Made by a program: the position numbers and the translations under genes | Part shown: positions 9,069 through 29,511 of the stretch, piece by piece | Layout of the letters: every line of letters starts with the position of its first letter | Numbering within the stretch: the stretch's first letter is position 1 | Source: Georgenia muralis | Lineage (GTDB): Bacteria; Actinomycetota; Actinomycetes; Actinomycetales; Actinomycetaceae | DNA length: 64,000 bases | Direction of reading: 5' to 3' | NCBI RefSeq assembly: GCF_003814705.1 | Contig: NZ_RKRA01000001.1 | Span: 1,798,001 to 1,862,000, forward strand | The notes under the pieces: model-generated | The model's database searches: none | Seen by the model: the letters and a program-made list of their open reading frames with translations, nothing else | Told to the model about the DNA's origin: nothing

Positions 9069-9668
9069 GTGCGCGCACGCACGAGGCGGACGGCGTGGCC
9101 CGCGCGCGCCCTGGCCGCGGCCGCCGTCCTCGTCCTCCTCGTCCTCGGGCCGCTCACGGGGGCGTACGCCCACGAGGACCTGCGCTCCTCGGTCCCGGCG
9201 GACGGCAGCGCCGGCCCCACCCCGGCGGCCGTGGAGCTCGTCCCGGCGGCCGTGGAGCTCGTGCTCACCGCACCGCCGCTGGCCGTCGGCGCCCAGGTGG
9301 TGGTCAGCGGTCCGGCGGGACCGGTCACCTCCGCACCGCCGGTCGTCGAGGGTGCCCGGCTCTCCGCGGCCCTCCCCGAGCGGCTGCCCCCCGGGAAGTA
9401 CCGCATGGCCTGGCAGGTCACCGCAGCGGACGGGCACCCGGTGACGGGGGAGCTCGGGTTCACGGTGGCCCCGTCCCCGGCCGGTACCGCGGAGCCCGAC
9501 CCGCCGCCGCAGCCCACCCGCCCGACGGCGCCGGTCGCAGAGGACGCAGCCGTGGGCCCCGGCCCGGTCGACGGGCCGGCCGACGGCACCCCCGTCACCC
9601 CGTTCGTGGCCGGGATCGTGGCGGTGGGCGCCGTCGTCGCCGGGTGGCTGGTGGTCCGGCGCCCCTGA
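9069..9668 (+). CDS. copC: CopC-family copper-binding protein with C-terminal membrane anchor
   Basis: Secreted CopC-domain protein of 199 residues. A signal peptide ends in AYA-His35, so the mature protein would begin with His, the known Cu(II) ligand of CopC; the second part of the site, ADGHP, is also present. A Pro-rich linker (about residues 140-170) leads to a C-terminal TM helix and a short basic tail, so the domain is tethered outside the membrane. A perfect 21-bp tandem duplication (9221-9241 and 9242-9262) repeats PAAVELV inside the domain. The GTG at 9069 starts 8 bp after the signal peptidase gene. Probable partner: CopD. Confidence 0.88.
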   Translation: MRARTRRTAWPARALAAAAVLVLLVLGPLTGAYAHEDLRSSVPADGSAGPTPAAVELVPAAVELVLTAPPLAVGAQVVVSGPAGPVTSAPPVVEGARLSAALPERLPPGKYRMAWQVTAADGHPVTGELGFTVAPSPAGTAEPDPPPQPTRPTAPVAEDAAVGPGPVDGPADGTPVTPFVAGIVAVGAVVAGWLVVRRP

Positions 9669-9671
9669 GCC

Positions 9672-11396
9672 TCACAGGCCCGGGTGGACCGCCGCCAGCG
9701 TGAGCCAGCCCCCGGAGAGGGTGCGGGCGTCGAAGCCCTCACCGAGCAGCACCCGGGTGGCGAGGTACGAGCGGACACCGCTGGCGCAGTGCACGCTCAC
9801 GGGCCGCCCCGCGGCGGCCTCGCGCACCTGCTCCAGGTGGTCGCGCAGCTCGGTGTGGGGGATGTTGAGGGCTCCCTCGAGGTGACCGCTCCCGTACTCC
9901 TTGTGGGAGCGGACGTCGAGGACGAGCGTGTCGCGCCGCACGTCCTCGAGGTCCCAGGCCTGCCACTGCGGCATCGTCCCGTCGAGGACGTTCTGCGCGA
10001 CGAAGCCGAGCATGTTGACCGGGTCCTTGGCCGAGCCGAACGGCGGGGCGTACGCGAGCTCGAGCTCGGCGAGGTCGTCGGCCGTCATGCCGGCGCGGAT
10101 CGCCGTGGCGAGGACGTCGATGCGCTTGTCCACACCGGCGCGGCCGACCGCCTGGGCGCCGAGCAGGGTGCCGTCCGGGGCGAAGCTGGCCACGAGGTGG
10201 ATCTGCTCCGAGCCCGGGTAGTACCCCGCGTGGTGGCCGGGGTGGATGTGCATGACCTCGTGGTCGATCCCTGCGCGGCGCAGCGTCGCCTGGTTCAGGC
10301 CGGTGGTGGCGGCGGTCAGGCCGAAGACCCGCACGATCGAGGTGGCCAGGACGTCCTTCTGCGGGGTGGTGCGCCGCCCGAGGACGGAGTCCGCGGCTCG
10401 CCGGCCCTGCCGGTTCGCCGGACCGGCCAGCGGCACCGGGACCCCGGCGCCCGTCCCGGCCTGGACGACCTCCACTGCGTCCCCGACGGCCCAGATGTGC
10501 GGGTCGGACGTGCGCTGGTCGGCGTCGACGCGGATGGCGCCGCTAGGGCCGAGGTCCAGACCGGCCTGCTTGGCCAGCGCCGAGGCCGGCCGGACCCCGA
10601 CGTTGACGACGACGAGGTCGGCGGGCAGGGCGGTGCCGTCGGAGAGGGTGACGGTGACCTGGCCGAGGGTGCCCGCGAGCTCGTCGCCGTACTCGGTCGG
10701 CTCGTCCGTGGCGGCCACCGACTGTGCGGAGACACCCAGGTGCAGCCTCACGCCGTGACGGGTGAGCTCGTCCGCGAGCAGCGGTGCCAGCTCGGCGTCC
10801 AGCGGGGTCAGGACGTGGTCGGCCAGCTCGACGAGGTGGACCTCCAGGCCGCGGGCGGCCAGCGCCTCGACGGCCTCGAGGCCGATGAAGCCTGCCCCGA
10901 TGACGACGGCGGAGGGCGCGTCGCCCTCTGCCCGTCCGGCCAGGACGGAGTCCACGGCGGCGCGCAGCCCGTCGACGTCGGGGACGGTGCGCAGGGAGTG
11001 CACGGCCGGGTGGTCCAGGCCCGCGATCGGGGGTCGGACCGGCACGGCACCGGGGGCGAGGACGAGGGCGTCGTAGGGCAGGTCGTAGGTGCCCTCCGGC
11101 CCGACGACGCTCACGCGGTGGGCGTCGCGGTCCACCCCGGTGACGCGGTGCCCGGTGCGGACGTCGAGGTCGAGGCTGGCCGCGAGGGTCGCGGGGGTGT
11201 GCAGGAGGAGCGCGTCGCGGCGCGCGATCTCCCCCGAGAGGTGGTACGGCAGGCCGCAGTTGGCGAACGAGACGTAGTCGCTCTGCTCGAGCACGACGAT
11301 GTCGGCGTGCTCGTCGAGGCGGCGGGCGCGCGCGGCGGCGCTCATGCCGCCGGCCACGCCACCGACGACGACGAGCCGCACGGGGGGCGCGGACAT
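9672..11396 (-). CDS. CoA-disulfide reductase with C-terminal rhodanese domain
   Basis: FAD- and NAD(P)H-dependent disulfide/polysulfide reductase fused to a rhodanese (CoADR-RHD family), 574 residues. An FAD Rossmann motif lies at the N-terminus (VVVGGVAGG), the single active-site Cys is in SFANCGLPY (Cys47), a second nucleotide fold begins at VVIGAGFIG, FAD contact is at WAVGDAV, and the C-terminal rhodanese domain (about 465-574) has active Cys537 in VHCASGVRS. Such fusions reduce CoA or glutathione persulfides and disulfides. It starts at ATG 11396, overlapping the upstream rhodanese stop by one base (TGATG). It belongs to the operon controlled by the palindrome at 11808-11823. Confidence 0.9.
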   Translation of the reverse strand: MSAPPVRLVVVGGVAGGMSAAARARRLDEHADIVVLEQSDYVSFANCGLPYHLSGEIARRDALLLHTPATLAASLDLDVRTGHRVTGVDRDAHRVSVVGPEGTYDLPYDALVLAPGAVPVRPPIAGLDHPAVHSLRTVPDVDGLRAAVDSVLAGRAEGDAPSAVVIGAGFIGLEAVEALAARGLEVHLVELADHVLTPLDAELAPLLADELTRHGVRLHLGVSAQSVAATDEPTEYGDELAGTLGQVTVTLSDGTALPADLVVVNVGVRPASALAKQAGLDLGPSGAIRVDADQRTSDPHIWAVGDAVEVVQAGTGAGVPVPLAGPANRQGRRAADSVLGRRTTPQKDVLATSIVRVFGLTAATTGLNQATLRRAGIDHEVMHIHPGHHAGYYPGSEQIHLVASFAPDGTLLGAQAVGRAGVDKRIDVLATAIRAGMTADDLAELELAYAPPFGSAKDPVNMLGFVAQNVLDGTMPQWQAWDLEDVRRDTLVLDVRSHKEYGSGHLEGALNIPHTELRDHLEQVREAAAGRPVSVHCASGVRSYLATRVLLGEGFDARTLSGGWLTLAAVHPGL

Positions 11397-11782
11397 CAGC
11401 GGACCGCCCCGCCGGCACGCTGCCACGCCGCCATGCCGCCGCTGAGGCTGGTGGCGTCGAACCCGAGGCCGCGCAGCTGCTTGGCGCCCGAGCGCGAGCG
11501 TGCACCGGAGGCGCACACGACCACGACCGGCTTGTCCTTGGCCAGGCGCCGCGGGGCCTTCTCACCGACCTCGGCCAGGGGCACGTGGACCGCCTGCGGC
11601 GCGTGACCGCTGCGCCACTCCTGGCGCTCGCGGACGTCGAGGAGGGACGCGCCGTCACCGACGAGCTCCAGCGCGCGGGCGGCGTCGACGGTGGAGGGCA
11701 GCCGCCCGTCGTCAGCGCCTGCGCCGAAAAGGCTCTTGAGGCGTGCGAGGAGGCCGGGGGAGGAGGGAGGAGGAGTGGTCAT
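11396..11782 (-). CDS. Single-domain rhodanese sulfurtransferase
   Basis: Cytoplasmic rhodanese-like protein of 128 residues. A proline-rich start and amphipathic stretch (LLARLKSLFG) precede a complete rhodanese fold with LLDVRERQEW, the substrate loop VCASGARS with persulfide-carrying Cys90, and the closing LSGGMAAWQ. It transfers sulfane sulfur between thiols. It is the first gene of a two-gene operon with CoADR-rhodanese. The CsoR/CstR-type palindrome centred 33 bp upstream of its ATG indicates derepression by persulfides (inference from the regulator family). Confidence 0.9.
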   Translation of the reverse strand: MTTPPPSSPGLLARLKSLFGAGADDGRLPSTVDAARALELVGDGASLLDVRERQEWRSGHAPQAVHVPLAEVGEKAPRRLAKDKPVVVVCASGARSRSGAKQLRGLGFDATSLSGGMAAWQRAGGAVR

Positions 11783-11807
11783 GGTTGTCCTTTCGTCACC
11801 ATCGACA

Positions 11808-11823
11808 ATACCCAGGGGGGTAT
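11808..11823. promoter_or_regulatory. CstR-type operator O1 (rhodanese-CoADR operon)
   Basis: ATACCC-AGGG-GGGTAT: 6-bp perfect arms with a 4-bp G-rich spacer, 26 bp upstream of the rhodanese start on the minus strand. The A/T-flanked C/G tracts are typical of CsoR/RcnR/CstR operators. It is one of four sites in this region. Confidence 0.75.
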
Positions 11824-12034
11824 GACAAATTCCGGCTCGCGGCGGTGAGGACCCTCACGGCCCCACCGGGACCGAGGTCCCGCCGCTGGGCCGCTCCGGC
11901 CGGCGGGGGCGACCCGTGCGCCCCACCGCTGTCGACCCCTGTGTGCCACCACTATGGCACCGGCCGCCGGGGTGCGGGCAGAGGACCCGGACGGCACGAT
12001 CGGGAGGACGGAATATGGCGGGCGCCGGTGCGTT

Positions 12035-12050
12035 ATACCCCGTAGGGTAT
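12035..12050. promoter_or_regulatory. CstR-type operator O2 (thioredoxin-DUF302)
   Basis: ATACCC-CGTA-GGGTAT: perfect 6-bp arms and a 4-bp spacer, 24 bp before the thioredoxin ATG. Its architecture is identical to O1. Together they flank a 290-bp divergent promoter region with no other recognisable gene. Confidence 0.75.
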
Positions 12051-12073
12051 CGACTGATCATGAAGGAGAACAC

Positions 12074-12454
12074 ATGTCCACCGTCAACCTGACCGCCGAG
12101 AGCTTCGAGAAGACCGTCCTGGACGGGGGCATCGTCCTCGTCGACTTCTGGGCGGCGTGGTGCGGCCCGTGTCGCATGTTCGCGCCTGTCTTCGAGAAGG
12201 CGTCCGAGGACCACCCCGACATCGTCTTCGGCAAGGTCGACACGGAGGCCGAGCAGATGCTCGCCGCCCAGGCGTCGATCACCTCCATCCCCACCCTCAT
12301 GGCCTTCCGTGACGGCATCCTGGTCTTCTCCCAGGCCGGCGCGCTGCCCGCGCCCGCGCTCGAGCAGCTCATCGACGCCGTCGAGGGGCTGGACATGGAC
12401 GACGTGCGCGCGCAGATCGCGGCGCAGCAGACCGCCGAGCAGCCGGTCTCCTGA
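12074..12454 (+). CDS. Thioredoxin
   Basis: Thioredoxin of 126 residues with the canonical FWAAWCGPC active site (Cys30, Cys33) and the conserved cis-Pro region (SITSIPTL). It reduces disulfides and also persulfides in the cytoplasm. The C-terminus has about 15 extra residues beyond classic TrxA. AAGGAG at 12063-12068 fixes the ATG at 12074. It is placed directly behind operator O2 and ahead of DUF302 and the CstR-like regulator, so it probably serves to reduce protein or low-molecular-weight persulfides made by the sulfur enzymes next door, rather than as the housekeeping thioredoxin (inference). Confidence 0.92.
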   Translation: MSTVNLTAESFEKTVLDGGIVLVDFWAAWCGPCRMFAPVFEKASEDHPDIVFGKVDTEAEQMLAAQASITSIPTLMAFRDGILVFSQAGALPAPALEQLIDAVEGLDMDDVRAQIAAQQTAEQPVS

Positions 12455-12536
12455 CCGGACGGACGCCGGTCCCCGGACCGGACGAACGCCGGCCACACCG
12501 GCCGGCGCCCACGACCGAACGACGAGAGGACCCACC

Positions 12537-12923
12537 ATGAGCTACGGCATCACCGTGACCACCGCCATGCCGTTCGACGAGGCGGTCGCCGCCGTCCGGG
12601 AGGCCCTCGGGGCCCAGGGCTTCGGCATCCTCACCGAGATCGACATGGCCGCCACCCTCAAGAAGAAGATCGACGCGGACATCCCGCCGCAGGTCATCCT
12701 CGGGGCGTGCAACCCGCCGCTCGCGCACCGTGCGCTCCAGGTGGAGGAGTCCGTCGGACTGCTCCTGCCGTGCAACGTCGTCGTGCGGGAGAGGGACGGG
12801 GCGACGGTCGTCGAGGCGCTCGACCCGCAGATCATGGTCGGCGTCACCGGCAACGACGACCTCGCCGCGGTGGCGGACGACGCCGCGACCCGGCTGCGGG
12901 CCGCGCTGGGCACGCTGGGATGA
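12537..12923 (+). CDS. DUF302 domain protein
   Basis: Cytoplasmic protein of 128 residues that spans a single DUF302 domain. Recognisable family features are MPFDEAVAAVREAL near the N-terminus, the central LGACNPPLAHRAL segment (Cys near residue 60) and LLPCNVVVRE (second Cys near residue 80), followed by DPQIM. The biochemical role of DUF302 is unknown; members recur beside SQR, rhodanese, thioredoxin and CsoR-family genes. GAGAGGA at 12523-12529 supports the ATG at 12537. It probably shares a transcript with thioredoxin, with 82 bp of GC-rich, possibly hairpin-forming sequence between them. Confidence 0.83.
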   Translation: MSYGITVTTAMPFDEAVAAVREALGAQGFGILTEIDMAATLKKKIDADIPPQVILGACNPPLAHRALQVEESVGLLLPCNVVVRERDGATVVEALDPQIMVGVTGNDDLAAVADDAATRLRAALGTLG

Positions 12924-12950
12924 CGCAGCCCGTCACGGCCGGACCGGCCG

Positions 12951-12964
12951 TACCCACAGGGGTA
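12951..12964. promoter_or_regulatory. CstR-type operator O3 (autoregulation of the CsoR-family gene)
   Basis: TACCC-ACAG-GGGTA: 5-bp perfect arms and a 4-bp spacer, 33 bp before the ATG of the CsoR-family regulator, in the 74-bp gap after DUF302. The position implies autoregulation. Confidence 0.7.
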
Positions 12965-12997
12965 TCCTGGGGTCCCGGGACGCAGAAGGGGGCGGTC

Positions 12998-13261
12998 ATG
13001 GAGCTCGATCCCACCGAGATGGGCAAGGTCATCAACCGCCTCAAGCGCGCGCAGGGCCAGCTCGCGGGCGTGCTCCGCATGCTCGAGGAGGGCCGCGACT
13101 GCGAGGACGTCGTGACCCAGCTCTCCGCGGTCTCCCGAGCGCTGGACCGTGCCGGCTTCGCCATCATCGCCACGAGCATGCGGCAGTGCCTCGTGGACTC
13201 CGACGGTGAGGAGTCGGTGGACGTCCAGAAGCTCGAGAAGCTCTTTCTCTCGCTCGCCTGA
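12998..13261 (+). CDS. CsoR-family repressor, CstR (persulfide-sensing) type
   Basis: All-helical DNA-binding repressor of 87 residues. The family pattern is clear: RLKRAQGQLAGVLRMLE in helix 1 and Cys35 (GRDCEDVVTQL) and Cys64 (SMRQCLV), 29 residues apart as in CsoR and CstR. Copper-sensing CsoR also needs a His four residues before the second Cys; here that position is Ser60. Loss of the His with both Cys kept is the mark of CstR, which forms di- and trisulfide links between the two Cys on reaction with persulfide. The gene lies among sulfur-transfer genes, not the copper genes, in agreement. It follows operator O3. The CstR call is inferred from residues and context. Confidence 0.85.
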   Translation: MELDPTEMGKVINRLKRAQGQLAGVLRMLEEGRDCEDVVTQLSAVSRALDRAGFAIIATSMRQCLVDSDGEESVDVQKLEKLFLSLA

Positions 13262-13871
13262 CGCCCACCGACGGCGCCGCGGCCTGGGACGCGCGGTACG
13301 CCGCGGCCGACCTGGTCTGGTCGGCCGCGCCGAGCCGCTGGGCGGTCGAGGTCCTCGGCGACCTGCCGCCCGGCGCCGCCCTCGACCTCGGCACCGGCGA
13401 GGGCCGGCACGCCGTCTGGCTCGCGCGCCGGGGCTGGCGCGTCACCGCGGTCGACTTCTCCGGGGAGGCGATCCGCAAGGCCCGCGCGCTCCAACAGGCC
13501 CACCTGCCGGGGGCGCCCATCGACTGGCGTCAGGCGGACGTCCTCGCCGACCCGCCGCCGCGGGCCGCCTTCGACGCGGTGCTGCTGATGTACCTCCACC
13601 TGCCGCGGGCGCAGCACCGAACCCTGCTGCGCGGTGCCGCCCAGGCCCTCGCGCCGGGCGGCTCGCTCCTCCTCGCGGGGCACGACCTGGCCAACCTCAC
13701 CGCCGGGCGGGGCGGTCCGCAGGACCCCGACGTCCTCTTCACCGTCGCGGACCTCCTCGCCGATCTCGAGGCCTCGAGGGGCTCGACGTCGTCCGCGCCG
13801 AACGGGCCGAGCGGGCCGTGGGCGACGCCGTCGCCCTGGACACCGTCCTGCACGTCGTCCTGCGAACCTGA
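13258..13871 (+). pseudogene. Class I SAM-dependent methyltransferase, frameshifted
   Basis: Reading from 13258 gives a TehB-like methyltransferase of about 200 residues. DLGTGEGRHAVWLA (SAM motif I), VTAVDFS (acidic loop) and LAPGGSLLLAGHD (post-motif III) are all in one frame. Near 13770 (run CGAGGGGCTCG) the frame breaks: the expected C-terminus (GLDVVRAERAERAVGD, VLHVVLRT and stop) continues in the +2 frame to 13871, as if one base were missing. No ATG, GTG or TTG opens the first frame; only a CTG at 13258, overlapping the regulator stop as CTGA, could start it. It is either a decayed gene, a sequencing indel in a G run, or a CTG-started gene with an error. Confidence 0.75.
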
Positions 13872-14039
13872 GCCCCGCCGGCGCGCCCGCCCCGCCCTTC
13901 ACCGACCCTTCACGCGCGGGCCCCCACGGGTGACACGCGCGCGGCGCAGGCTCGTGGGCACCACGCCGCCCCCGGCCGGTTCCCGGGCTGGCACGCTAGG
14001 AGGGCCGCGGTGCGTGGTCGGCGGGTCAGGAGGGCTCAC

Positions 14040-14729
14040 ATGGGCAGGCAGGTGCTCGTCGTCGACGACGAGCCGGGCATCCGGCGGGTCCTGCGCGGCT
14101 ACCTCGAGGGCGAGGGCCTGGAGGTGGCCGAGGCGGCCACCGGTGAGGAGGCGGTCGCCCGCGTGCGCCGCACCGGACCCGACCTCGTCCTGCTCGACGT
14201 CATGCTGCCCGACGTGGACGGCATCGAGGTCCTCCGGCGGATCCGCACCTTCTCCGACGTCTACGTCGTCCTCGTCACCGCCCGCGCCGAGGAGACGGAC
14301 AAGCTCGTCGGCCTCGCAGTCGGGGCGGACGACTACGTGACCAAGCCCTTCAGCCCCCGCGAGGTCGTCGCCCGGGTCAAGGCGGTGCTCCGCCGCGGTC
14401 GTGGCGGTACCGAGGAGGGCGCCCGGCTCGTGCTCGACGGCCTGGTCGTGGACCCCGTGGCGCACGAGGTCCACGTCGACGGCCGGGCCGTGAGCCTCTC
14501 GGCCCTCGAGTTCGACCTCCTCGCCGCACTCGCCGGCTCCCCGGGCCGCGTCTTCTCACGCCGTCAGCTCCTCGAGCGCGTCTGGGGCTACGACTTCTAC
14601 GGCGACGAGCGCGTGGTCGACGTCCACGTCCGGAGCCTGCGCAAGGAGCTCGGTGACGACGCCGCCTCGCCCCGGATCATCGGCACCGTGCGCGGCGTGG
14701 GGTACAAGCTCCTCCTGGAGCCGACGTGA
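14040..14729 (+). CDS. OmpR/PhoB-family response regulator
   Basis: Two-domain transcription factor of 229 residues. The receiver domain shows VVDDEPG (acidic pocket), phospho-acceptor Asp in LVLLDVMLP (about Asp53), the Thr switch in VLVTAR and Lys in YVTKPFS. The C-terminal winged helix carries the usual LSALEFDLLAAL, GRVFSRRQLLERVWGYDF and VDVHVRSLRKEL motifs. The ATG at 14040 follows CAGGAGGG with suitable spacing; the in-frame start at 14010 lacks this. It overlaps the sensor kinase by GTGA, so the pair is one two-component system. It lies between the CstR-like gene and SQR, but no sequence tie to sulfur is seen. Confidence 0.92.
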   Translation: MGRQVLVVDDEPGIRRVLRGYLEGEGLEVAEAATGEEAVARVRRTGPDLVLLDVMLPDVDGIEVLRRIRTFSDVYVVLVTARAEETDKLVGLAVGADDYVTKPFSPREVVARVKAVLRRGRGGTEEGARLVLDGLVVDPVAHEVHVDGRAVSLSALEFDLLAALAGSPGRVFSRRQLLERVWGYDFYGDERVVDVHVRSLRKELGDDAASPRIIGTVRGVGYKLLLEPT

Positions 14730-15847
14730 ACCGGCTCTCCGTCCGGCTCCTCCTGAGCCACGCGCTCGTCGCCGCGATCGGCGGGCTCACCACGTACCTG
14801 CTGGTGCGGTTCCTCGCCCCGCAGATGTACGACCGAGACGTACGGATGATGGGCGGGCCCGGTGGGGCCGGTGGGCCCGCCGGCGGGCCGGGCGTCGGCG
14901 GAGCCGGGCTGCGGGAGGTCACCGTCTCGGCGATGAACAACGCCGTCCTCGTCGGGGTGCTCGCCGGCATCGTCACGGCCGTCCTGGCGGGCGCCTACTC
15001 CTCGAGCCGGGTCATGCGGCCGCTGCGTGCGGTGAGTGCAGCGACGCACACCCTCGCCCAGGGCCGCTACGACCGGCGGGTCACCGTCCCGCGCGAGCTC
15101 GAGCTCGCCGCCGTCGCCGAGGACGTGAACGCCCTCGGTGAGCGGCTGGCCGAGACCGAGGCCCGCCGGGTGCGGCTGCTCGGGGAGGTCGCCCACGAGA
15201 TGCGCACCCCGCTGACCGTGCTCGACGGGTACGTCGAGGGCATGGTCGACGGCGTCTTCGAGCCGGGTCCGGAGGTCCTCACCGAACTCGGCGCGGAGGT
15301 GCGTCGTCTGCGTCGTCTCGCCGACGACCTCAGCGCCCTGTCCCGGGCGGAGGAGGGGCGGCTGGAGCTGCGGGCGGCGGAGGTGGACCTGGCCGGGCTC
15401 GCCGTGCGTGCGGCCGAACGCCTGCGCGCCCAGCTCGACGACGCCGGGGTGCGCCTGGAGGTGCCCGCACCGAGCGGCCCGCTGCCGGTGACCGCCGACG
15501 CCGACCGCCTCGCCCAGGTCGTCACCAACCTCGTCGGTAACGCCCTCGCCGCGACCCCTGCGGGCGGGGTGGTCGAGGTGACCTCCCGGCGGGCGGGGGG
15601 CGAGGCCGTCGTCAGCGTGCGCGACACCGGCACCGGACTCGCGGCCGGCGACCTCGAGCGGGTCTTCGAGCGCTTCTACCGGGTGCCGGGCGGCGCGGAC
15701 GCCCGTGCGGGCCGGCACACCGGCTCGGGCATCGGTCTGACCATCGCCCGCGGCATCGCCCGCGCCCACGGGGGCAACGTCACGGCGTCGTCCGGAGGGC
15801 CCGGGCGAGGCTCCACGTTCGAGCTGCGGGTGCCGCTGGGCGGGTAG
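14726..15847 (+). CDS. Sensor histidine kinase
   Basis: Membrane sensor kinase of 373 residues. The N-terminal TM helix (about 7-30) is followed by a short extracytoplasmic loop rich in Gly/Pro (MMGGPGGAGGPAGG), a second TM (about 72-92), a HAMP-like segment, the phospho-acceptor His in EVAHEMRTPL (about residue 156), and the HATPase with N-box NLVGNALAATP, DTGTGL and GSGIGLTIARG. The sensor loop of only about 40 residues suggests that it senses within the membrane or through a partner. The GTG start overlaps the response regulator stop (GTGA). Confidence 0.92.
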   Translation: MNRLSVRLLLSHALVAAIGGLTTYLLVRFLAPQMYDRDVRMMGGPGGAGGPAGGPGVGGAGLREVTVSAMNNAVLVGVLAGIVTAVLAGAYSSSRVMRPLRAVSAATHTLAQGRYDRRVTVPRELELAAVAEDVNALGERLAETEARRVRLLGEVAHEMRTPLTVLDGYVEGMVDGVFEPGPEVLTELGAEVRRLRRLADDLSALSRAEEGRLELRAAEVDLAGLAVRAAERLRAQLDDAGVRLEVPAPSGPLPVTADADRLAQVVTNLVGNALAATPAGGVVEVTSRRAGGEAVVSVRDTGTGLAAGDLERVFERFYRVPGGADARAGRHTGSGIGLTIARGIARAHGGNVTASSGGPGRGSTFELRVPLGG

Positions 15848-15860
15848 CGGTCCGGCTCCG

Positions 15861-15946
15861 GTGAGCGAGTGGGTCTGCCGGAGCGCGCGGGTCTGCGGTG
15901 AGCGAGTGGGTCTGCGGTGAGCGAGTGGGTCTGCGGTGAGCGCGCA
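15861..15946 (+). repeat. 4.5 tandem 19-bp repeats after the histidine kinase
   Basis: Unit GTGAGCGAGTGGGTCTGCG at 15861, 15898 and 15917, with a degenerate 18-bp copy at 15880 (GGAGCGCGCGGGTCTGCG) and a partial copy from 15936. It is noncoding, within the 435-bp gap between the kinase and SQR. Slippage-type array; function unknown. Confidence 0.8.
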
Positions 15947-15988
15947 GGGTCGGAGGTGCTGAGTGACCCGGGAGCCGCTGACTCGCCG

Positions 15989-16030
15989 CGGTCGCCGTCC
16001 CTGCGGTCGCCGTCCCTGCGGTCGCCGTCG
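15989..16030 (+). repeat. Three tandem 15-bp repeats upstream of SQR
   Basis: CGGTCGCCGTCCCTG occurs at 15989-16003 and 16004-16018, followed by a truncated copy (CGGTCGCCGTCGTCC) from 16019. It lies in the same noncoding gap as the 19-bp array and about 150 bp before the SQR operator. Nothing else is recognisable in the gap apart from that operator. Confidence 0.75.
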
Positions 16031-16181
16031 TCCGACGTGATGGCCGTGGCCGATCGTCGCCCCGGAGGGGCTCACCGTCAGCGTGCGCGCGGTGACGGCG
16101 CGGGCGGCAGCGCGGCGGCAGCGCCAGCCGTCCCTGGCGTGAGCCACGTCACAGAAGGGACCTTTCGCTCGCTTCGGCCAA

Positions 16182-16197
16182 ATACCCCCGGGGGTAG
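16182..16197. promoter_or_regulatory. CstR-type operator O4 (sqr operon)
   Basis: TACCC-CCGG-GGGTA inside an A...G flanked stretch; the central 14 bp (16183-16196) are a perfect palindrome. It is 86 bp before the SQR ATG, with a long leader between. It has the same TACCC-N4-GGGTA rule as O1-O3. Confidence 0.72.
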
Positions 16198-16282
16198 GAC
16201 GTACGGCCCGGTAAACCGGCAAACCGGGCGCGCATGATCATCATGTCACCCCGAAAGGCCACACCACTCCTGGAGGACGACG

Positions 16283-17527
16283 ATGAAGCGTCTGGTCATT
16301 CTCGGCGGCGGAACCGCCGGGACGATGGTCGCGGTGAAGCTCCGCCGCAAGCTCAAGAAGGAGAAGTGGCAGATCACGGTCGTCGACCAGGACCTGCAGC
16401 ACCTCTACCAGCCGGGGCTGCTCCTGCTCCCGTTCGGCGTCTACGAGCCGCACGAGCTGGTCAGGCCGCGCGACAAGTACCTGCCGCGCGGGGTCGACCT
16501 CGTGATGGGGGAGATCGACAAGGTCGACCCCGAGGCGCAGCGCGTGGACCTCATGGACGGCCGCACCCTCGACTATGACTACCTCGTCATCGCCACGGGC
16601 ACCACCCCCCGGCCGGACCAGACCCCCGGCATGGAGGAGGGCGAGTGGCGCAAGAGCATCCACGAGTTCTTCACCCTCGAGGGCGCGATCGCCCTGCGGG
16701 AGGCGCTGGCCGACTTCACGGGCGGCCGCCTGGTGGTCCACATCACCGAGATGCCCATCAAGTGCCCGGTCGCGCCGCTGGAGTTCACCTTCCTCGCCGA
16801 CGCCTTCTTCGAGGAGAAGGGCATGCGCGACAAGGTCGAGATCGTCTACGCCACCCCGCTCGAGGGCGCGTTCACGAAGCCGGTCGCCTCCGCCCATCTC
16901 GGCACGATGTTCGAGGACCGAAACATCCACATGGAGCCCGACTTCTACATCGAGCACATCGACCCCGAGACGAAGACCATGGTCTCGATGGACGAGCGGG
17001 AGATCCCCTTCGACCTCCTCGTCACGATCCCGCTCAACATGGGCGCCGACTTCGTGGCCCGCTCCGGCCTGGGTGACGACCTCAACTACGTCCCGGTCGA
17101 CAAGGGCACCCTGCTCTCGACGAGGTACCAGAACATCTTCGCGGTCGGCGACGCCAGCAACATCCCCGCCTCGAAGGCCGGCTCGGTAGCCCACTTCGCG
17201 GTGGACGGGTTCACCGAGAACTTCGTCGACCACGTCCACGGCCGGCCCATGACCGACCTCTTCGACGGTCACGCGAACTGCTTCATCGAGTCCGGCCACG
17301 GCAAGGGCCTGCTCATCGACTTCAACTACGACACCGAGCCGCTGACCGGGGTCTACCCCTACCCCAAGGTCGGACCCCTCAGCCTGCTGAAGGAGACCCG
17401 AGCCAACCACTGGGGCAAGCTCGCGTTCCGCCACCTGTACTGGAACGTGCTCATGCGCGGTCTGCCCATGCCCGTCTCCCCCCACATGTCCATGGCCGGC
17501 AAGGAGACCGCCGGCACGAACGTCTGA
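16283..17527 (+). CDS. sqr: Sulfide:quinone oxidoreductase
   Basis: FAD-dependent, membrane-associated oxidoreductase of 414 residues that oxidises sulfide to sulfane sulfur and passes electrons to quinone. The N-terminal dinucleotide fold GGGTAGTM, VIATGTTP and FAVGDASNIPASKAGSVAHF are typical of the SQR/FCSD group. A Cys pair, Cys161 (MPIKCPVAP) and Cys333 (HANCFIE), matches the two redox Cys that carry the polysulfide chain; a third Cys near residue 128, seen in some bacterial SQRs, is absent. The C-terminal stretch has amphipathic helices suited to membrane binding. GGAGGA precedes the ATG at 16283. It leads an operon with DsrC-like and DsrE2-like carriers behind operator O4. Confidence 0.87.
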   Translation: MKRLVILGGGTAGTMVAVKLRRKLKKEKWQITVVDQDLQHLYQPGLLLLPFGVYEPHELVRPRDKYLPRGVDLVMGEIDKVDPEAQRVDLMDGRTLDYDYLVIATGTTPRPDQTPGMEEGEWRKSIHEFFTLEGAIALREALADFTGGRLVVHITEMPIKCPVAPLEFTFLADAFFEEKGMRDKVEIVYATPLEGAFTKPVASAHLGTMFEDRNIHMEPDFYIEHIDPETKTMVSMDEREIPFDLLVTIPLNMGADFVARSGLGDDLNYVPVDKGTLLSTRYQNIFAVGDASNIPASKAGSVAHFAVDGFTENFVDHVHGRPMTDLFDGHANCFIESGHGKGLLIDFNYDTEPLTGVYPYPKVGPLSLLKETRANHWGKLAFRHLYWNVLMRGLPMPVSPHMSMAGKETAGTNV

Positions 17528-17541
17528 GAGGTACGACAACC

Positions 17542-17856
17542 ATGCCCGTCATCGAGATCTCCGGTAAGCCCGTCCACGTCAACGACGAGGGCTTCCTCAC
17601 CGAGTACGACGAGTGGGACGAGGACATCGCCCGCACGCTCGCCCAGCAGATCGGCATCGACATGACCGACCAGCACTGGAAGGTCGTCCACTTCCTGCGC
17701 GACGACTTCAAGGCCCAGGGCGAGACCGCCACGACCCGCCGGATCAACACCGTCGGCGGCATCCCGGTCAAGGAGCAGTTCGCCCTGTTCCCCAAGAAGC
17801 CGGGCCGCAAGATGTCCTACATCGCCGGGCTGCCCAAGCCGCACGGCTGCGTCTGA
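17542..17856 (+). CDS. DsrC/TusE-family sulfur carrier, single-Cys form
   Basis: Small sulfur-carrier protein of 104 residues. It spans the DsrC/TusE fold (IEISGKPVHVNDEGFL at the start, then DEWDEDIA) and ends in the diagnostic flexible arm GLPKPHGCV with Cys103 as penultimate residue. Dissimilatory DsrC has a second Cys eleven positions earlier; here it is Ser92, so only a persulfide on Cys103 can form, as in TusE. It is 14 bp downstream of SQR and 16 bp before the DsrE2-like gene. It probably accepts sulfane sulfur produced by SQR through the DsrE2-like protein (inference). Confidence 0.87.
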   Translation: MPVIEISGKPVHVNDEGFLTEYDEWDEDIARTLAQQIGIDMTDQHWKVVHFLRDDFKAQGETATTRRINTVGGIPVKEQFALFPKKPGRKMSYIAGLPKPHGCV

Positions 17857-17872
17857 GAGAGGCACACCGACC

Positions 17873-18409
17873 ATGACCACCACACCTGTCACCGCACCGG
17901 CGATCGTCCCGAACTTCGACGACGAGGAGACCGACCGGAAGCTTGCGATCATCTGCTCCAAGGGCAACCTCGACATGGCCTACCCGGGGCTCATCCTCGG
18001 CAACGCCGCCCTCGGTGAGGGCATCGAGACTCACTTCTTCTTCACCTTCTGGGGCTTCGACATGATCATGAAGTCCCGGATGAACGACCTGACGTTCTCC
18101 CCGGTCGCCAACACCGCCATGCACCTGCCCATCCGGGACATGAAGCTGCCGCAGGCCCTCGCGCCGGCGCCCGGCATCAGCCGCATGACGACGAAGATGA
18201 TGAAGAAGCAGATGGACGACCTCGGCATCCCCACGGTGCCGGACTTCCTCGACCAGATCGTCGCCGCCGGGGGTCACCTCTGGGCGTGCCAGCTCTCGGC
18301 CGACATGAACAAGCTCGACGCCTCGGACTTCCGGGACGACATCGAGGGGATCATCACGGCCGCGGACTTCATCGAGATGACGGGCGGCGCCCAGCTGCTG
18401 TTCATCTGA
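17873..18409 (+). CDS. DsrE/DsrF/DrsH-like (DsrE2) sulfurtransferase
   Basis: Protein of 178 residues of the DsrE2 type. It begins with a loose N-terminus, then LAIICSKGNLD (Cys28), GLILGNAALGEG, the aromatic THFFFTFWGFDMI strand, a long basic-Met segment, and GGHLWACQLS (Cys139). The two Cys match the sulfur-binding positions of the DsrE2 family, which hands persulfide sulfur to TusA/DsrC-type carriers. The aromatic strand is hydrophobic enough to approach the membrane where SQR works. It is the last gene of the SQR operon and is followed at once by a strong hairpin. Confidence 0.87.
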   Translation: MTTTPVTAPAIVPNFDDEETDRKLAIICSKGNLDMAYPGLILGNAALGEGIETHFFFTFWGFDMIMKSRMNDLTFSPVANTAMHLPIRDMKLPQALAPAPGISRMTTKMMKKQMDDLGIPTVPDFLDQIVAAGGHLWACQLSADMNKLDASDFRDDIEGIITAADFIEMTGGAQLLFI

Positions 18410-19491: not shown

Positions 19492-19809
19492 CTACTTGCC
19501 GTCGGGTGACCCGGCCACCGGCGCCTCTAGCTGATCGGAGAGGCGAATTCTCCAGTCGTGGGGCCCTCGGCGCCCCAGCGGCAGGTTGAGGAAGCTGCGC
19601 ACCTCGTTGATCGACATACGAGCCTCGACCGCAATGTGGTCGGGCGAGAGACCGGCACTGTGCGCGGCCTGCACGGCGCTTCCGACCCGCTCTGTCGACC
19701 AGTCACCACCCGCCTGTGCGGACTTGGTCAGTGAGAGGAGCCCCCCCTCAAGTGCCTCCCGCTGCTCCTCCTCGAGGTCACGAGCAGGCTCGAGCCACTC
19801 GTCCGTCAT
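19492..19809 (-). CDS. Small hypothetical protein of the element, HTH-like segment
   Basis: I do not recognise a family. The 105-residue product is acidic at its N-terminus (DEWLEPARDLEEEQREALEGG) and has a segment near residue 60 (LSPDHIAVEARMSINEVRSFL) with the spacing of a helix-turn-helix. The ATG at 19809 was chosen because GGAGG lies 6 bases upstream; a GTG at 19830 has nothing. Conserved-looking codon usage and the good RBS support it as real. It is the leftmost gene of the element and could be a regulator or an accessory protein. The 170 bp between the attachment site and this gene hold no other ORF. Confidence 0.55.
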   Translation of the reverse strand: MTDEWLEPARDLEEEQREALEGGLLSLTKSAQAGGDWSTERVGSAVQAAHSAGLSPDHIAVEARMSINEVRSFLNLPLGRRGPHDWRIRLSDQLEAPVAGSPDGK

Positions 19810-20025
19810 CCCGAACCTCCAGCCCTTCACGAGTCGCTCAGGTACCCCGTCTCGGGATCAATATTGGCGAGAAAGCCACGCACTGCTTCCTCGAGTGTCT
19901 CAGCCGGCAAGGGGGCCATGGCCCGAGGTTCCCAGAGTGAAGCGAGAGACCGCGTTGGCCGGAAGCCAGGCGAAGTCGTAGACCCCGGCGCTCCCTCCGC
20001 CGCTAGCGCGGACGAACCTCCGGCG

Positions 20026-20472
20026 TCACAGGTAGACAGATCCGTCGGCGGCGATTGTGCCGGACTGGATGCTCGGGCCGTGTCCGTCCCGGCGGGTCAA
20101 GTCCGTGCGCTCGGTGGTGTCCGTGCTCTTGTCGCCGGAGCGGAGATATTCCAGCCCGTTGGTGAGGAACTCTTGGTTAATGATCCCCGCGCGACGTAGC
20201 GCCACGAGGTCGGTGGCCTTGAGTTCTGCGAGGACTGATCCGTTCAGCATTTGCCGGTGGCGCAGCATCGCTAGCTCGAAGGCCGCTTCGGGAGCTCCCT
20301 CGCCCTCGCCAGGGGGCCAGTTGAACTCGGTGTTTGTGCCGGCCTTGATCAGAGCAATGTCGGCGGTGGTGAGGTATCCACTCTTCATGTCGCCGTGCAG
20401 CGTGGGGCGCACATGTGCCAAGGGTTGGGCGTGGGTTGTGCTGTTCGACGCGACGATGGGGCCGATGTTCAT
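20026..20472 (-). CDS. Hypothetical protein of the element
   Basis: Unrecognised 148-residue soluble protein. It has a middle part with a helical, Leu/Ala-rich region (AAFELAMLRHRQMLNGSVLAELKATDLVALRRAGII) in its conceptual product spanning about residues 60-100, and a polar tail rich in Thr/Asp. No membrane segment or signal. GGGAGGGG lies 6 bases before the ATG at 20472; another ATG at 20478 is too close to it. It is on the same strand as and downstream of the relaxase, with 92 bp between, so it is probably part of the mobilization module. Confidence 0.5.
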   Translation of the reverse strand: MNIGPIVASNSTTHAQPLAHVRPTLHGDMKSGYLTTADIALIKAGTNTEFNWPPGEGEGAPEAAFELAMLRHRQMLNGSVLAELKATDLVALRRAGIINQEFLTNGLEYLRSGDKSTDTTERTDLTRRDGHGPSIQSGTIAADGSVYL

Positions 20473-20564
20473 GAGCATCCCCTCCCGAGAGTGGGTTTGG
20501 ACAGGACGTCTGCCCTAGTGGACTCATCGGTGGCGATACACCAAACGTGAGGCTCTGCCAGTGC

Positions 20565-23500
20565 CTACAGGCGCGGCCCGAGGTCACGGCGAGGACCGAG
20601 CCGACGCGCGGGAGGCGGCGATGCCTGGCCGTGGGCTTCGAGCGCTCGTGCCTTCAGCGTGGCTCCGGGCATCCGTTTGGAAGCGGCGGGTCTGGCAGTC
20701 TGGAGGAGGAGTTGCGCGGCCGCGGTGACGGGTAGGGCGTCGGTCGCGGCGAGTAGGTGGCGTGCTTCGTCCGCGCGGCGGCGCCACTCAGCGGCGCGAG
20801 CGTCGACGGTGCTCGGCGGCTGGCCGTTGCCGATGCTGCGCCACAGCGCCGCCCGTGCGTCCGCGTGGCGGGCGGTGAGTTCCTGTAGCTGCCGGTGTGC
20901 GTGGGCGGCGTCCTGCCGCGCTTCGACGACTCGGGGGTGGGCGTCGGCTCGCCGCGCGGCGACGGCCTCGGCCCAGGAGTGGGTATCGACCATCGCGGGC
21001 GGCACCGCCCCCCAACGTCGCAGCATCACGTCCTCGGCCGCCTGGTGTGCCAGGTCGGCCTCACGCGCGGTTCGGGCTGCGGCCCGCCGACCGAACCGGC
21101 CTGAGCCCTGCAAGGCGCGGCTGGCATGCCACATGCGCTCTTGGGCGGTCTGGTAGTCGGTGGCGTCTGCGCTGGCCTCGGCGAGCAGCCGCGCGGCTAC
21201 CTGGTCCCGGACCCGAGAAGCGTGTGCGTCGGCGGCGGCGAGGATCTGGGCGTGACGTGCGTACTCGGTCTGGTGGGCGGCGGTCTGCCGGGCGAGCGCG
21301 GCAACAGCGTCCTTCCAGGCGGCGGCCTGCTCATCGGCGTGCGCGATCTGCTGGGTGAGCCGGGCCCGCTCGGCGGCGACAAGCAGCACCGGCCCGTCGG
21401 CGGTCAGGCCCGTGACGGCGTCCTGCGCAGCGCGGGTCGCCTCCCACAGGCCGCGGTCAGCGCGGTCACGCTCAAGCGCGGCAACGAACTGCTCCCGGGC
21501 GTCATCCAGATCCGCAGCGACTACATGGAGCATGTTCTGAGCGCGGCCGCGGGTCATGCCGACGTAGACCCCGGCGGCGTCGAGGGCGTCGGACAGCACC
21601 GTGTGCGCCGCAGTCACAGTCACGCCCTGCACCCCGTAGGCGGTGGCGGCGTAGGCCAGGTGCGCGTGCTCGGCCAGATACTCCGCCGGTAGCCGCACGG
21701 CGGGCGGGTGCCTGCGCCCGCTCCCGTGCTCGGTCACCCAGGCCGCGCCGTCGTCCTCGACGCGGCTCACGGTCCAGGTCTGCCGGTTGGCGATCTTCAG
21801 GACGCTGTCGTTGCGACGGGTCTGGATCACGTCTCCAATGCCGATCGACAATCCGTCGGACCCGGCCGTGGTACGTGCGTCATCGACCAGGCCCCGGCGC
21901 ACCCGCTCGCCGCGGATTCGCGCGTTCAGCTCGCGCGCCTCCTCGTTCGTCGCGGTCGTGATCGCCTCGCCGTCCCGCGCGGTGGCGGCGATGGTCTCCT
22001 GCACGGCATCGGTGCTCTCGTGCACGCGGACGAGGCCGAGCGCGTCCAGGTGGTCGAACAGCTCCGCGGGGTGCTCACCGGCGCGCATGCGCACCGTGAG
22101 GTCGGCGTAGGCGGGGTCGGTGAAGCGGTGGACGCTTGCCATGTCGTAGGTCGTGCCGGCGAGCTGGGCGGCCAGGTCGAGCACGCCGCCCCGGCCGACG
22201 GCGGGCAGCTGGGCGCGGTCACCGACCAGGGCGAGGGTCGCGCCGGCCTCGCCGGCGATGGTCAGCAGGGCCAGGGCGGTGTCCTGGTCGAGCATCCCGG
22301 CCTCGTCGACCACGATCCGCTCGCCCGGATGCAGTCGCGCCGCCGGTGGTGGGCCGGGGTAGGCGGTGCCGGTGTCCGGGTCGGTGTCACTAACATCGAG
22401 GCGGGTCCAGACGCCGTCGGCGTTCCACCGCCACCCGTTGGCGTGGACGAGCTTGGCCACGCTGCCGGCCGGGACGCCGAGCTCCTGCGCGGCGACGGCT
22501 GCGGCCTTCTTCGTCGGGGTCACGATGCGGGTCGGGCGGCCCTGAACGGCGGCGGCGCGGATCGCGGCGCCGAGCATGGTGGTCTTACCCGCCCCGGCCG
22601 CGCCCTCCACGACCACGAGCGCAGCGTCGGAGGCGATAGCGGCGGCCGCGCGGACCTGTTCCGCGTCCAGGCCGCGCCCGTGCGCCACCCGGATCATGTT
22701 GGGCGGCGGGGGTGCGTCGGCGGTGGTGCGGGCGGCCAGCAGGTCGCGCAGGTGCGTCTCGACCGCGATCACGCGCAGGCTCGTCAGGTGCGCGACATGG
22801 TCCGGCGCCGCGGCGCCGGGCGGCAGCACCGACAGGCAATCCTGAACGGCGAGCCGGGTGGTGATCGTGATCAGCTCGGACACCGCCTGCGGGGTCGCGC
22901 GGACCTCGGCCTCGGTGATGAGGCGCGTGACGTGCTCCTGGACGGTGTGCCGGGTCCACGTCGACGCCGCGGCCGCGCACCGGTCCAGCGCGCGGTTCGC
23001 GACCTGCTGCACCCGCAGCTCGTCCAGCTCGCGCGGTGGGCGGCAGTGCACGCGTGGGAGGTCCGCGGTGTAACCGGCCTCGTCTAGCTCGCGCCGCCAG
23101 CCGGCCTCGCTGCCGAGCCGTGACGGCTTCTTGCTCGGGCGCTGGTGATCCCAGGCCATCGCCTGTAATCGGGCACTGACCCCCGGGCCGGGCTCCCGGC
23201 CGGGGTGGGCGGCCTCCCACTGCGCAATGAACACCGCGAGGTTGCGTGCGACCTGGCCAGCGCGCTTGCTCATCACCGCGTTGAACGGTTCCAGCTCCGC
23301 CACCTCGCCGGAGACCGGATCGAGTGTCAGGCCGTGGGCGTCGAGCACTGCGGCCAACTGCGGGTGGGCCGCCAGCACCGCGGTGCCCAGCGCCCGGATC
23401 GCCCCTAGCTGGCGGAACAGGGCCGCGGTGTCCAGGCCGCGCCACGCGCCACGGGCCCACACCCGGGTGCCGATCTGCAGGTGGATGTGCCGGTGCGGGT

Positions 23501-23999
23501 CACCGGCGCGAGACGTCCGGTGCGAGATGCCCACCGTCTGCAGCCGCTCGACCGGCACGACCTCCTGGTTCCCGCGCGGGCCGACGCGGGTGACCGAGTG
23601 CTGCCCGAGCCACGAGCGGATCGCGACCACGGCGTCGCGCTGCGCGGCATCCAGCGCCGCCGACACCTCCGGATGCAGCGCCGCGGCGATCGACAGCGAC
23701 TTGGGAGTGTTCACGACCATCTCCGCGAACCGCGGAGACCCTTGCCGGCCACCGCCAGCCTGGCGGGCCATACCCATCGCCTCCCCGCTAATCGGGTCGA
23801 CCCAATCGACCCAGCCCGCATACTCCACGGGTGTCAGCGGGCGATCATCCATCGCCATCCCGGTGCCGTCGACCACGGAGAACTCCGCTTGCGCGGCGCC
23901 GGCCTCCAGGTAGTACTCGTCCGCCCGCGAGCGGTCCGCCTCGAGGTAACGACGCGCGGCAGTCCCCGTCCCTCGGAACAGGATCACTCCGCCGCGCAC
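20565..23999 (-). CDS. MobF-family relaxase-helicase (TraA/TrwC-like)
   Basis: Large conjugative relaxase of about 1144 residues. The N-terminal TrwC domain has the catalytic tyrosine region (RYLEADRSRADEYYLEAG, near residue 20) and the metal-binding three-His motif PHRHIHLQ (near 167). A RecD-like helicase follows with Walker A EGAAGAGKTT (near 465), DEAGML (near 562) and the late VTVTAAHTVL and GMTRGR motifs. The C-terminal 300 residues are Ala/Arg/Gln-rich and look coiled-coil. It nicks oriT and unwinds the transferred strand. The frame is open to 24110, but GTG 23999 fits the family start (MRGGVILFRGTG) and has GAGGGGG upstream. No coupling protein lies next to it. Confidence 0.88.
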   Translation of the reverse strand: MRGGVILFRGTGTAARRYLEADRSRADEYYLEAGAAQAEFSVVDGTGMAMDDRPLTPVEYAGWVDWVDPISGEAMGMARQAGGGRQGSPRFAEMVVNTPKSLSIAAALHPEVSAALDAAQRDAVVAIRSWLGQHSVTRVGPRGNQEVVPVERLQTVGISHRTSRAGDPHRHIHLQIGTRVWARGAWRGLDTAALFRQLGAIRALGTAVLAAHPQLAAVLDAHGLTLDPVSGEVAELEPFNAVMSKRAGQVARNLAVFIAQWEAAHPGREPGPGVSARLQAMAWDHQRPSKKPSRLGSEAGWRRELDEAGYTADLPRVHCRPPRELDELRVQQVANRALDRCAAAASTWTRHTVQEHVTRLITEAEVRATPQAVSELITITTRLAVQDCLSVLPPGAAAPDHVAHLTSLRVIAVETHLRDLLAARTTADAPPPPNMIRVAHGRGLDAEQVRAAAAIASDAALVVVEGAAGAGKTTMLGAAIRAAAVQGRPTRIVTPTKKAAAVAAQELGVPAGSVAKLVHANGWRWNADGVWTRLDVSDTDPDTGTAYPGPPPAARLHPGERIVVDEAGMLDQDTALALLTIAGEAGATLALVGDRAQLPAVGRGGVLDLAAQLAGTTYDMASVHRFTDPAYADLTVRMRAGEHPAELFDHLDALGLVRVHESTDAVQETIAATARDGEAITTATNEEARELNARIRGERVRRGLVDDARTTAGSDGLSIGIGDVIQTRRNDSVLKIANRQTWTVSRVEDDGAAWVTEHGSGRRHPPAVRLPAEYLAEHAHLAYAATAYGVQGVTVTAAHTVLSDALDAAGVYVGMTRGRAQNMLHVVAADLDDAREQFVAALERDRADRGLWEATRAAQDAVTGLTADGPVLLVAAERARLTQQIAHADEQAAAWKDAVAALARQTAAHQTEYARHAQILAAADAHASRVRDQVAARLLAEASADATDYQTAQERMWHASRALQGSGRFGRRAAARTAREADLAHQAAEDVMLRRWGAVPPAMVDTHSWAEAVAARRADAHPRVVEARQDAAHAHRQLQELTARHADARAALWRSIGNGQPPSTVDARAAEWRRRADEARHLLAATDALPVTAAAQLLLQTARPAASKRMPGATLKARALEAHGQASPPPARRLGPRRDLGPRL

Positions 24000-24313
24000 G
24001 CCGACCCCCTCGTCGCGTGTACTTGCAACTACCGAAGGTAGCATACGTCCATTCGCGCGGGACAGCGGGCAGTAGGGAGAACTGCGAATTGGCGACGGCA
24101 CGCGCAGCAACCGCCAGTAAGCGCAGGTGCACGGAGCAAACGCCCTGCCCGGCGAGCTCGGAAACAGGTGCGCACCGCTCAGTTAGCGCCTTGAGCCGAC
24201 CAGAAGCGCTGGACACGGGTACTGCGACTCTCACCGAGGGGTTCACCTGCGGGCGCGGTTCCGTAGAAGCCGCCCCTGATATGGACCTCCGATTGGGCTA
24301 CAGGCGGGTCAAC
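24000..24313. other. Noncoding region between relaxase and metal genes; candidate oriT/operator zone
   Basis: About 310 bp without a convincing gene. It contains a 13-bp palindrome CTACC-GAA-GGTAG at 24029-24041 and, overlapping it, TGTACTTGCAACTAC (24018-24032), which recurs upstream of the excisionase at 30259-30273. MobF oriT sites usually lie next to the relaxase gene, so the nick site may be here, but no nic consensus can be named. Confidence 0.4.
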
Positions 24314-24343
24314 TTGCTCCCGAATGCCGTACGGCGCTAACAT
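24314..24343 (+). promoter_or_regulatory. Promoter of the cadmium operon
   Basis: TTGCTC (-35) and TAACAT (-10) are separated by 18 bp, with the GTG start of the sensor gene 6 bp after the -10, so the transcript is probably nearly leaderless. The spacer contains a GCCGTACGGC palindrome (24325-24334) that could be the sensor's operator. Confidence 0.5.
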
Positions 24344-24349
24344 CGTGCC

Positions 24350-26784: not shown

Positions 26785-26931
26785 CGGCAGGGGGCCGGCG
26801 GGCACCGCCCGCTAGCCCCAAGAATTCCCGGCCGGGGGAGGGCCGTGGCCGCACGAGCACGGCCCTCATCCCTGCCCGGTCATCGCACACCCGTGCCGAC
26901 ACCAGCGCCGGCGCTTCACCGAAAGGCAGTC

Positions 26932-27534: not shown

Positions 27535-27594
27535 CGCCACCCCGAACGGCCTGCAGACCACCCGGCGACCTCGGCGAGATCCCAAGGAGACAAG

Positions 27595-28504: not shown

Positions 28505-28534
28505 CGCACCCGACGAAAAGTAAGGAACGTCGCG

Positions 28535-29035: not shown

Positions 29036-29051
29036 CCCTCCACGACGACGT

Positions 29052-29210: not shown

Positions 29211-29511
29211 GCGGGCGCGTGCCGGCGCGCGCGCACCGCAGCGACCGCCGCTTTGCGCCATCATGTGCGCATTCACGGCCCACCATCCCGCCGGCCACTG
29301 CTCCACTGCCCCGGCAAGTCCAGGGCGGCGTCCGCGTGCATGTGGCGGTATGTGCTAACTCATGTGCTACCGGCCCTGTAGATCGGTGAATCACGACGTT
29401 GTCATCCAGAGACCGACCCGTCCAAACCCCAGTGGTTGCGCGCCAAAACGCCGATCCGTGATCCCGCCCGTGAGGGGCTCGCGAACAGTTCGAACCCCTA
29501 CTCCGCCAACG

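Follow-up and report, generated by a model that had tools for sequence, protein, structure and literature searches.

Sulfur relays in which a DsrE-family protein pairs with a carrier of the DsrC/TusE family are known as DsrEFH-DsrC in A. vinosum and as TusBCD-TusE in E. coli. Here we describe an island of sulfur genes in a 64-kb stretch (the window) of the single-contig genome of Georgenia muralis (NZ_RKRA01000001.1, 4,143,265 bases), in which a type III sulfide:quinone reductase (SQR), a one-cysteine DsrC/TusE-family carrier and DsrE2 are encoded in a row, so that the same pairing is found here too. Circuits governed by a CstR-type repressor and an operon of type III SQR, TusA and DsrE2 are already in print, and the island is therefore a variation on a known theme. 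What is unusual in it is the TusE-type carrier.

Three described systems come close to the island. In Methylacidiphilum fumariolicum the operon MFUM_v2_0219-0221 encodes type III SQR, TusA and DsrE2 and is about 1.7-fold up in sulfide-adapted cells (PMC10205796). As in G. muralis, type III SQR is followed by a small carrier and then by DsrE2, but the carrier is TusA there and a one-cysteine DsrC/TusE protein here, and the portion of that paper available to us does not mention a CstR circuit. The YrkD cluster of Bacillus licheniformis places DsrE-, TusA-, rhodanese-, thioredoxin (Trx)- and TauE-like genes, SQR and a persulfide dioxygenase (PDO) under a CstR-type repressor (PMC9918477). This cluster shares with ours the CstR-type repressor over sulfur genes and a two-component system ahead of sqr. 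It differs in having TusA and not TusE among its carriers, in its two-component system being NreBC and in containing PDO, and neither DUF302 nor CoA-disulfide reductase (CoADR) is among the genes listed in the text that we drew on. In Streptomyces coelicolor ScCsoR is a two-Cys sensor of sulfane sulfur that controls PDO, rhodanese and a sulfite transporter through ATACCn6GGTAT (PMC7533328). Here the likeness lies in an actinobacterial CsoR-like sensor, a similar operator and the kinds of genes that G. muralis has in a remote rhodanese/PDO-type/TauE unit (see below). However, PMC7533328 sets the ScCsoR circuit against H2S-oxidising circuits with SQR and PDO, and the triad is not mentioned in the sections consulted. 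In the openly licensed PMC literature (titles and abstract openings) we found no description, for Actinomycetota, of SQR accompanied by DsrE2 and a carrier of the TusE/DsrC kind.

Our results make it probable that the island belongs to a CstR-type regulon for sulfide and sulfane-sulfur detoxification, in which a TusE-like protein stands where the Methylacidiphilum SQR-III/TusA/DsrE2 operon has TusA. Window genes were named from Pfam and NCBIfam family scans unless marked as read from sequence. The palindrome TACCCN4GGGTA has four exact copies in the window, all of them in the island (11809, 12036, 12951 and 16183). When one mismatch is permitted there are six matches, two of them outside the island, with a shuffle mean of 0.40 and a maximum of 3; the shuffle mean of a tighter exact pattern, TACCCNNNRGGGKA, is 0.04. 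Each of the four palindromes heads a unit. The first, TACCCAGGGGGGTA (11809..11822), lies 26 nt upstream of the start codon of a single-domain rhodanese (128 aa, 11396..11782, minus strand; PF00581, 65.5 bits), whose unit also holds a CoADR-like flavoprotein with a C-terminal rhodanese domain (574 aa, 9672..11396, minus strand; Pyr_redox_2 and Rhodanese; TIGR03385, 389.7 bits, below the cut-off of 578.8). The second, TACCCCGTAGGGTA (12036..12049), is 24 nt from the start codon of a Trx with the WCGPC motif (12074..12454, plus strand; TIGR01068, 106.6 bits, above the cut-off of 96.8), and a DUF302 protein belongs to the same unit (12537..12923, plus strand; PF03625, 89.3 bits). The third, TACCCACAGGGGTA (12951..12964), precedes by 33 nt the start codon of the CstR-like repressor of the CsoR family (12998..13261, plus strand; PF02583, 88 bits, above cut-off). 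The fourth, TACCCCCGGGGGTA (16183..16196), lies 86 nt upstream of the start codon of SQR (16283..17527, plus strand; NF049943, 633 bits, cut-off 525), which shares its unit with the DsrC/TusE-family carrier (17542..17856, plus strand; PF04358, 105.8 bits; TIGR03342, 77.5 bits, above the cut-off of 53.5) and DsrE2 (17873..18409, plus strand; PF13686, 105.7 bits, above cut-off; NF047629, 109.5 bits, below the cut-off of 210).

A first-pass annotation of the window had described this island as seven sulfur or thiol genes and one CsoR-family gene, in three units that share a palindrome. Family scans and palindrome counts confirm the overall observation, and all of the genes are present, each matching its family. 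The common palindrome is borne out as well, but there are four palindromes, and the regulator has its own. The range given, 11394..18409, holds the remaining sulfur genes but leaves CoADR-rhodanese (9672-11396) almost entirely outside.

The SQR-DsrC-DsrE2 triad is a stable core and is not local to the window. Among the best 80 of 579 loci retrieved with an alignment of 16 SQRs, DsrC follows SQR in 79 and DsrE2 is present in 78, with order and strand constant; at the loci where the triad is incomplete (L057 and L110) the sequence reaches the contig end. In 23/79 loci (e.g. L052:4629-5333) SQR and DsrC are separated by a DUF1641-type gene, for which the window has no match. Of 394 genomes sampled from the class, 31 have SQR above the family cut-off and 34 have DsrC, and 31/31 SQR genomes have DsrC. 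One DsrC-only genome (G015) carries CoADR, CstR, the palindrome, DsrC and DsrE2, this kind of SQR being absent from the locus read; G027 and G042 have SQR fragments beside DsrC. At the 30 of the 34 DsrC loci that were read, DsrE2 was found in 30 and SQR in 27. Among 396 genomes sampled from the phylum, some of them also in the class sample, 49 matched at 1e-60, and the best 30 loci were read. Cysteines at both SQR positions are seen in 27/30 loci from 19 families, one of which (L165) has a TAA inside the SQR frame, and DsrC and DsrE2 accompany SQR in 27/27. The first-pass annotation had named adjacency of the genes only here as an outcome that would refute it; this is not what is found, as the triad stands at every Cys-type SQR locus read from the phylum sample and CstR lies near some of the 80 SQR loci.

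Conserved cysteines were counted in alignments that include the window; a filter on completeness or length removed L110 from the DsrC rows and L090 from the DsrE2 rows. In SQR both Cys161 and Cys333 are kept in 81/81 rows. The canonical Cys pair of type III SQR is stated in the part of PMC13047784 used here, and the family score together with both canonical catalytic cysteines places the G. muralis enzyme in this type. A selenoprotein motif, HxxU, is given for NF049943 in the table of PMC13188914 to which we had access. The window enzyme is not of this selenoprotein subtype, Cys333 sitting in an open frame. In a different family of the phylum, three loci (L166, L167 and L168) do carry TGA in frame where the window has Cys333 (HxxU), and in the flanks examined DsrC and DsrE2 were not found. 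The nearest named SQR is that of Georgenia thermotolerans (75%; the list may omit records very near the window's own). The G. muralis genome also encodes a second, more distant SQR-like flavoprotein (C1:1575324-1576487; NF049943, 150 bits, below cut-off).

In the DsrC-like protein C103 (CysA) is kept in 79/79 rows. The CysB position is occupied by Ala in 65 rows and by Ser in 14, among them Ser92 of the window, and never by Cys; rows L100 and L102 have an additional Cys among the last 15 residues. With a single Cys and no CysB, the CysA-CysB disulfide of true DsrC is not possible. The protein thus lacks the pair that defines DsrC sensu stricto and has the single penultimate Cys of TusE, although its score with the TusE equivalog model NF008562 falls below cut-off (57 bits, cut-off 191). 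Judged by its sequence, the "DsrC" of the island is a one-cysteine TusE-type carrier; the earlier label of DsrC-like carrier was right about the family (PF04358, TIGR03342) but not about the type. The genome was searched for the TusBCD partners of TusE, and neither PF02635 (DsrE/TusCD) nor PF04077 (DsrH/TusB) had a match, whereas the E. coli control matched both. The genome search for dsrA also gave no match; since no control genome passed the cut-off, this negative depends on the model itself. DsrE2, of which the genome has one copy, is the sole DsrE-type partner found, and in this the locus differs from DsrEFH-DsrC and TusBCD-TusE. Cys139 of DsrE2 is kept in 78/78 rows and Cys28 in 72/78. 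DUF302 was found in eight loci, in seven of them beside CstR or DsrE2 (L045, L060, L082, L086, L093, L112 and L118; not L107). Its C58 and C79 are kept in 9/9 rows, and the protein with these two invariant cysteines is a candidate for a further sulfur or thiol handler.

The palindrome reaches beyond the island. Genome-wide there are 12 sites in 4.14 Mb, 4 of them inside 4.4 kb, and the reversed control pattern has two. One remote site is 42 nt upstream of a rhodanese gene; after it come genes for a PDO-type protein with metallo-beta-lactamase and rhodanese domains and for a TauE exporter. We call the protein PDO-type for its order of domains, which is that given for SCO0618 in PMC7533328. Another site abuts the start of a secreted-looking rhodanese. 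Around sites L007 and L011 no sulfur gene was recognised (open reading frames read by eye), and both may be chance occurrences. The first-pass annotation had noted that PDO and TusA are not in view in the window, and rightly: tblastn of the window with the genome's own copies found no PDO, TusA or TauE and matched only rhodanese domains. It had also left the final sulfur acceptor open. Since the genome has, outside the window, a PDO-type/TauE unit with this palindrome as well as a TusA gene, the acceptor is less open than was stated. In Georgenia thermotolerans L045, Lapillicoccus L086, Pseudosporangium L109 and L116 the triad has PDO and TauE as neighbours, so that these predicted remote targets lie at the island itself in other genomes. 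TusA has one genome copy, beside a YeeE-like transporter (name read from sequence); a search of the 80 loci with a single TusA of G. muralis as query, which a divergent TusA could escape, gave 0 hits beside the triad.

A further remote site (L005:1354-3060) is an exact palindrome 19 nt upstream of the gene of a SoxB-related metallophosphatase. As SQR passes electrons to quinone, one could suppose that the triad serves energy-conserving sulfide oxidation, the regulon feeding lithotrophy and the SoxB-like enzyme finishing the oxidation. We find this unlikely. With 204 bits, the SoxB-like protein stays below the TIGR04486 cut-off of 550, and it was rejected as an island-linked gene, with matches near 0/80 triad loci. 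The genome has no DsrA match, and PMC7533328 describes rhodanese/PDO/TauE sets under repressor control as serving to remove sulfane sulfur.

Two exact palindromes, the closer one 10 nt from the ATG, lie upstream of the gene of one small membrane protein (L010:2752-3276; genome C1:3209751-3210215) that has a CSTC motif and no match in Pfam or NCBIfam. Relatives, some of them at sulfur islands of other genera, were found in 3/80 loci, namely L045, Pengzhenrongella L101 and L071 (about 250 nt from a palindrome), and for a further relative, in L136, a palindrome with one mismatch stands 10 nt upstream of a possible ATG. The three aligned small membrane proteins have GC[TS]PCA and a third Cys in common. 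In L101 there is also a second membrane protein with GCPVC, 10 nt downstream of an exact palindrome. Among the 394 class genomes four matched, G. muralis included, two of them weakly (2.8e-4 and 7.5e-4), and the protein is therefore rare or fast-evolving.

In all, the genome encodes three proteins of the CsoR family. In an alignment of 12 rows C35, Ser/Gly60 and C64 are shared by the window protein and nine relatives from islands, and the two same-genome paralogues have His60, which we take to be a copper ligand in the CsoR family. These paralogues adjoin a CopZ-like gene and a copper-ATPase-like gene (both names read from sequence). The window protein belongs to the CsoR/DUF156 family, has the two cysteines with the His lost, and its palindromes are linked to sulfur genes, all as expected of CstR. 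A PDB sequence search gave ten matches, the second of which by E-value, 7MQ2, is named CstR in the review PMC9774590. Two cysteines, and Ser where both genome paralogues have His, indicate that the regulator is CstR-like rather than copper-type; on this the first-pass annotation is upheld by residues C35/S60/C64 and by the operator palindromes. The operator class is nevertheless identical to that of the copper sensors CsoR and RicR, a CopC-like gene lies at 9069-9668, and a multicopper-oxidase-like gene stands beside another palindrome (both names read from sequence). The island could then be a copper-stress response whose sulfur genes shield thiols from copper. Given that His60 occurs in 0/10 CstR-like rows and in both paralogues that adjoin copper-type genes, and that SQR, PDO-type and TauE genes are sulfide genes, we regard this as very unlikely. 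Least probable is that the TusE-like protein and DsrE2 send sulfane sulfur from SQR to biosynthesis (tRNA thiolation, Fe-S). E. coli TusE does work in tRNA thiolation, but G. muralis lacks a PF04077 or PF02635 match, and DsrC, present in only 34/394 class genomes, is tied to SQR rather than to a universal tRNA need.

The predicted CstR control extends to some of the other triads. TACCN6GGTA lies upstream of SQR in 21/80 loci (mean of shuffles, 0.03; two control palindromes, 1 and 1), upstream of DsrC in 0/79 and upstream of DsrE2 in 0/78. Of the 80 SQR loci, 9 have CstR in their flanks, several of them with Trx, DUF302, rhodanese or PDO; the flanks are often short. Some observations weigh against a sulfide-detoxification regulon. 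In 59/80 loci there is no palindrome within 250 nt upstream of SQR, only 4/27 triad loci of the phylum sample, G. muralis included, have one before SQR, and CstR was not found in the available flanks of 71/80 SQR loci. None of the NCBIfam PDO models scored above cut-off with the PDO-type protein, and one remote site is flanked by the multicopper-oxidase-like gene and, on its other side, by a two-component system (both named from sequence). The palindrome class is common to copper-type sites, as stated for CsoR and RicR in the section of PMC7533328 consulted. Moreover, the direction of sulfur flow (oxidation, biosynthesis or back to sulfide) is not readable from sequence. Taken together, the counts of palindromes (21/80 and 4/27) and of CstR (9/80) mean that CstR control of the triad is recurrent and not universal. 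It is important to note that sparse palindromes at other triads bear on generality, not on the window.

From the gene identities, the common palindromes, the conserved cysteines, the triad co-occurrence and the remote PDO-type/TauE unit we infer the transfer steps, their order and the induction of a detoxification regulon as follows. The CstR-type repressor would hold down the four units of the island and the remote operons. Type III SQR would oxidise sulfide, with electrons going to quinone, and sulfane sulfur would accumulate. This sulfur could modify the CstR cysteines, by persulfidation or by forming di-, tri- or tetrasulfides, and release the repressor from the palindromes. Sulfur may move from Cys161/Cys333 of SQR to Cys103 of the TusE-like protein and Cys139 of DsrE2, and the carriers would deliver it, directly or via rhodanese, to the PDO encoded remotely behind the same palindrome. 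PDO would turn persulfide into sulfite for export by TauE, and surplus persulfides would be reduced by Trx and CoADR-rhodanese. The earlier interpretation is partly supported: it keeps its CstR-type regulator and common palindrome, and is corrected on the type of the DsrC-like carrier and on the final acceptor, which is less open than it stated.

More tentatively, it is possible that in Actinomycetota and in two Chloroflexota contigs type III SQR passes its sulfur to the TusE-like/DsrE2 pair and not to a low-molecular-weight thiol, with TusE replacing TusA, and that the regulon includes a GCxxC membrane protein. Actinobacteria in general use mycothiol, not glutathione, and the carriers of the triad would be a candidate for the acceptor of SQR sulfur in such bacteria. 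What one-cysteine DsrC/TusE proteins do apart from TusBCD and DsrAB is not obvious, and a strict SQR/DsrE2 partnership offers them a role that is testable with three purified proteins. The sequence-defined regulon would also take in an unnamed CxxC membrane protein.

Between the regulator and SQR there are genes that the first-pass annotation did not mention. A class I S-adenosylmethionine methyltransferase-like gene (13258..13870, plus strand; PF13649, 68.4 bits for the part before the frame break) is apparently broken, with a frame break near 13775 and no ordinary start codon seen. Its homologues occur in 2/80 loci, beside CstR in L101 (open frame, 204 aa) and beside DsrE2 in L105; with so few homologues and a broken window copy, a role as sulfide methylase was not adopted. 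A two-component system follows, composed of an OmpR-type response regulator (14040..14729, plus strand; PF00072, PF00486) and a sensor histidine kinase (14726..15847, plus strand; NF012163, 215 bits, below the cut-off of 500). By analogy with NreBC of B. licheniformis it was considered as a member of the circuit. Within the set compared, however, the response regulator is nearer to a same-genome paralogue (53%) than to neighbours of the Terrabacter triads (48-49%), and since its best match belongs to a two-component system of the same genome, circuit membership is not claimed. The island is also adjoined by a probable integrated element (19500-31853) next to tRNA-Pro (31778-31853), whose open reading frames, with names read from sequence, are relaxase-like (20565-24110), ArsR- and metal-ATPase-like (24350-26784) and integrase-like (30509-31690).

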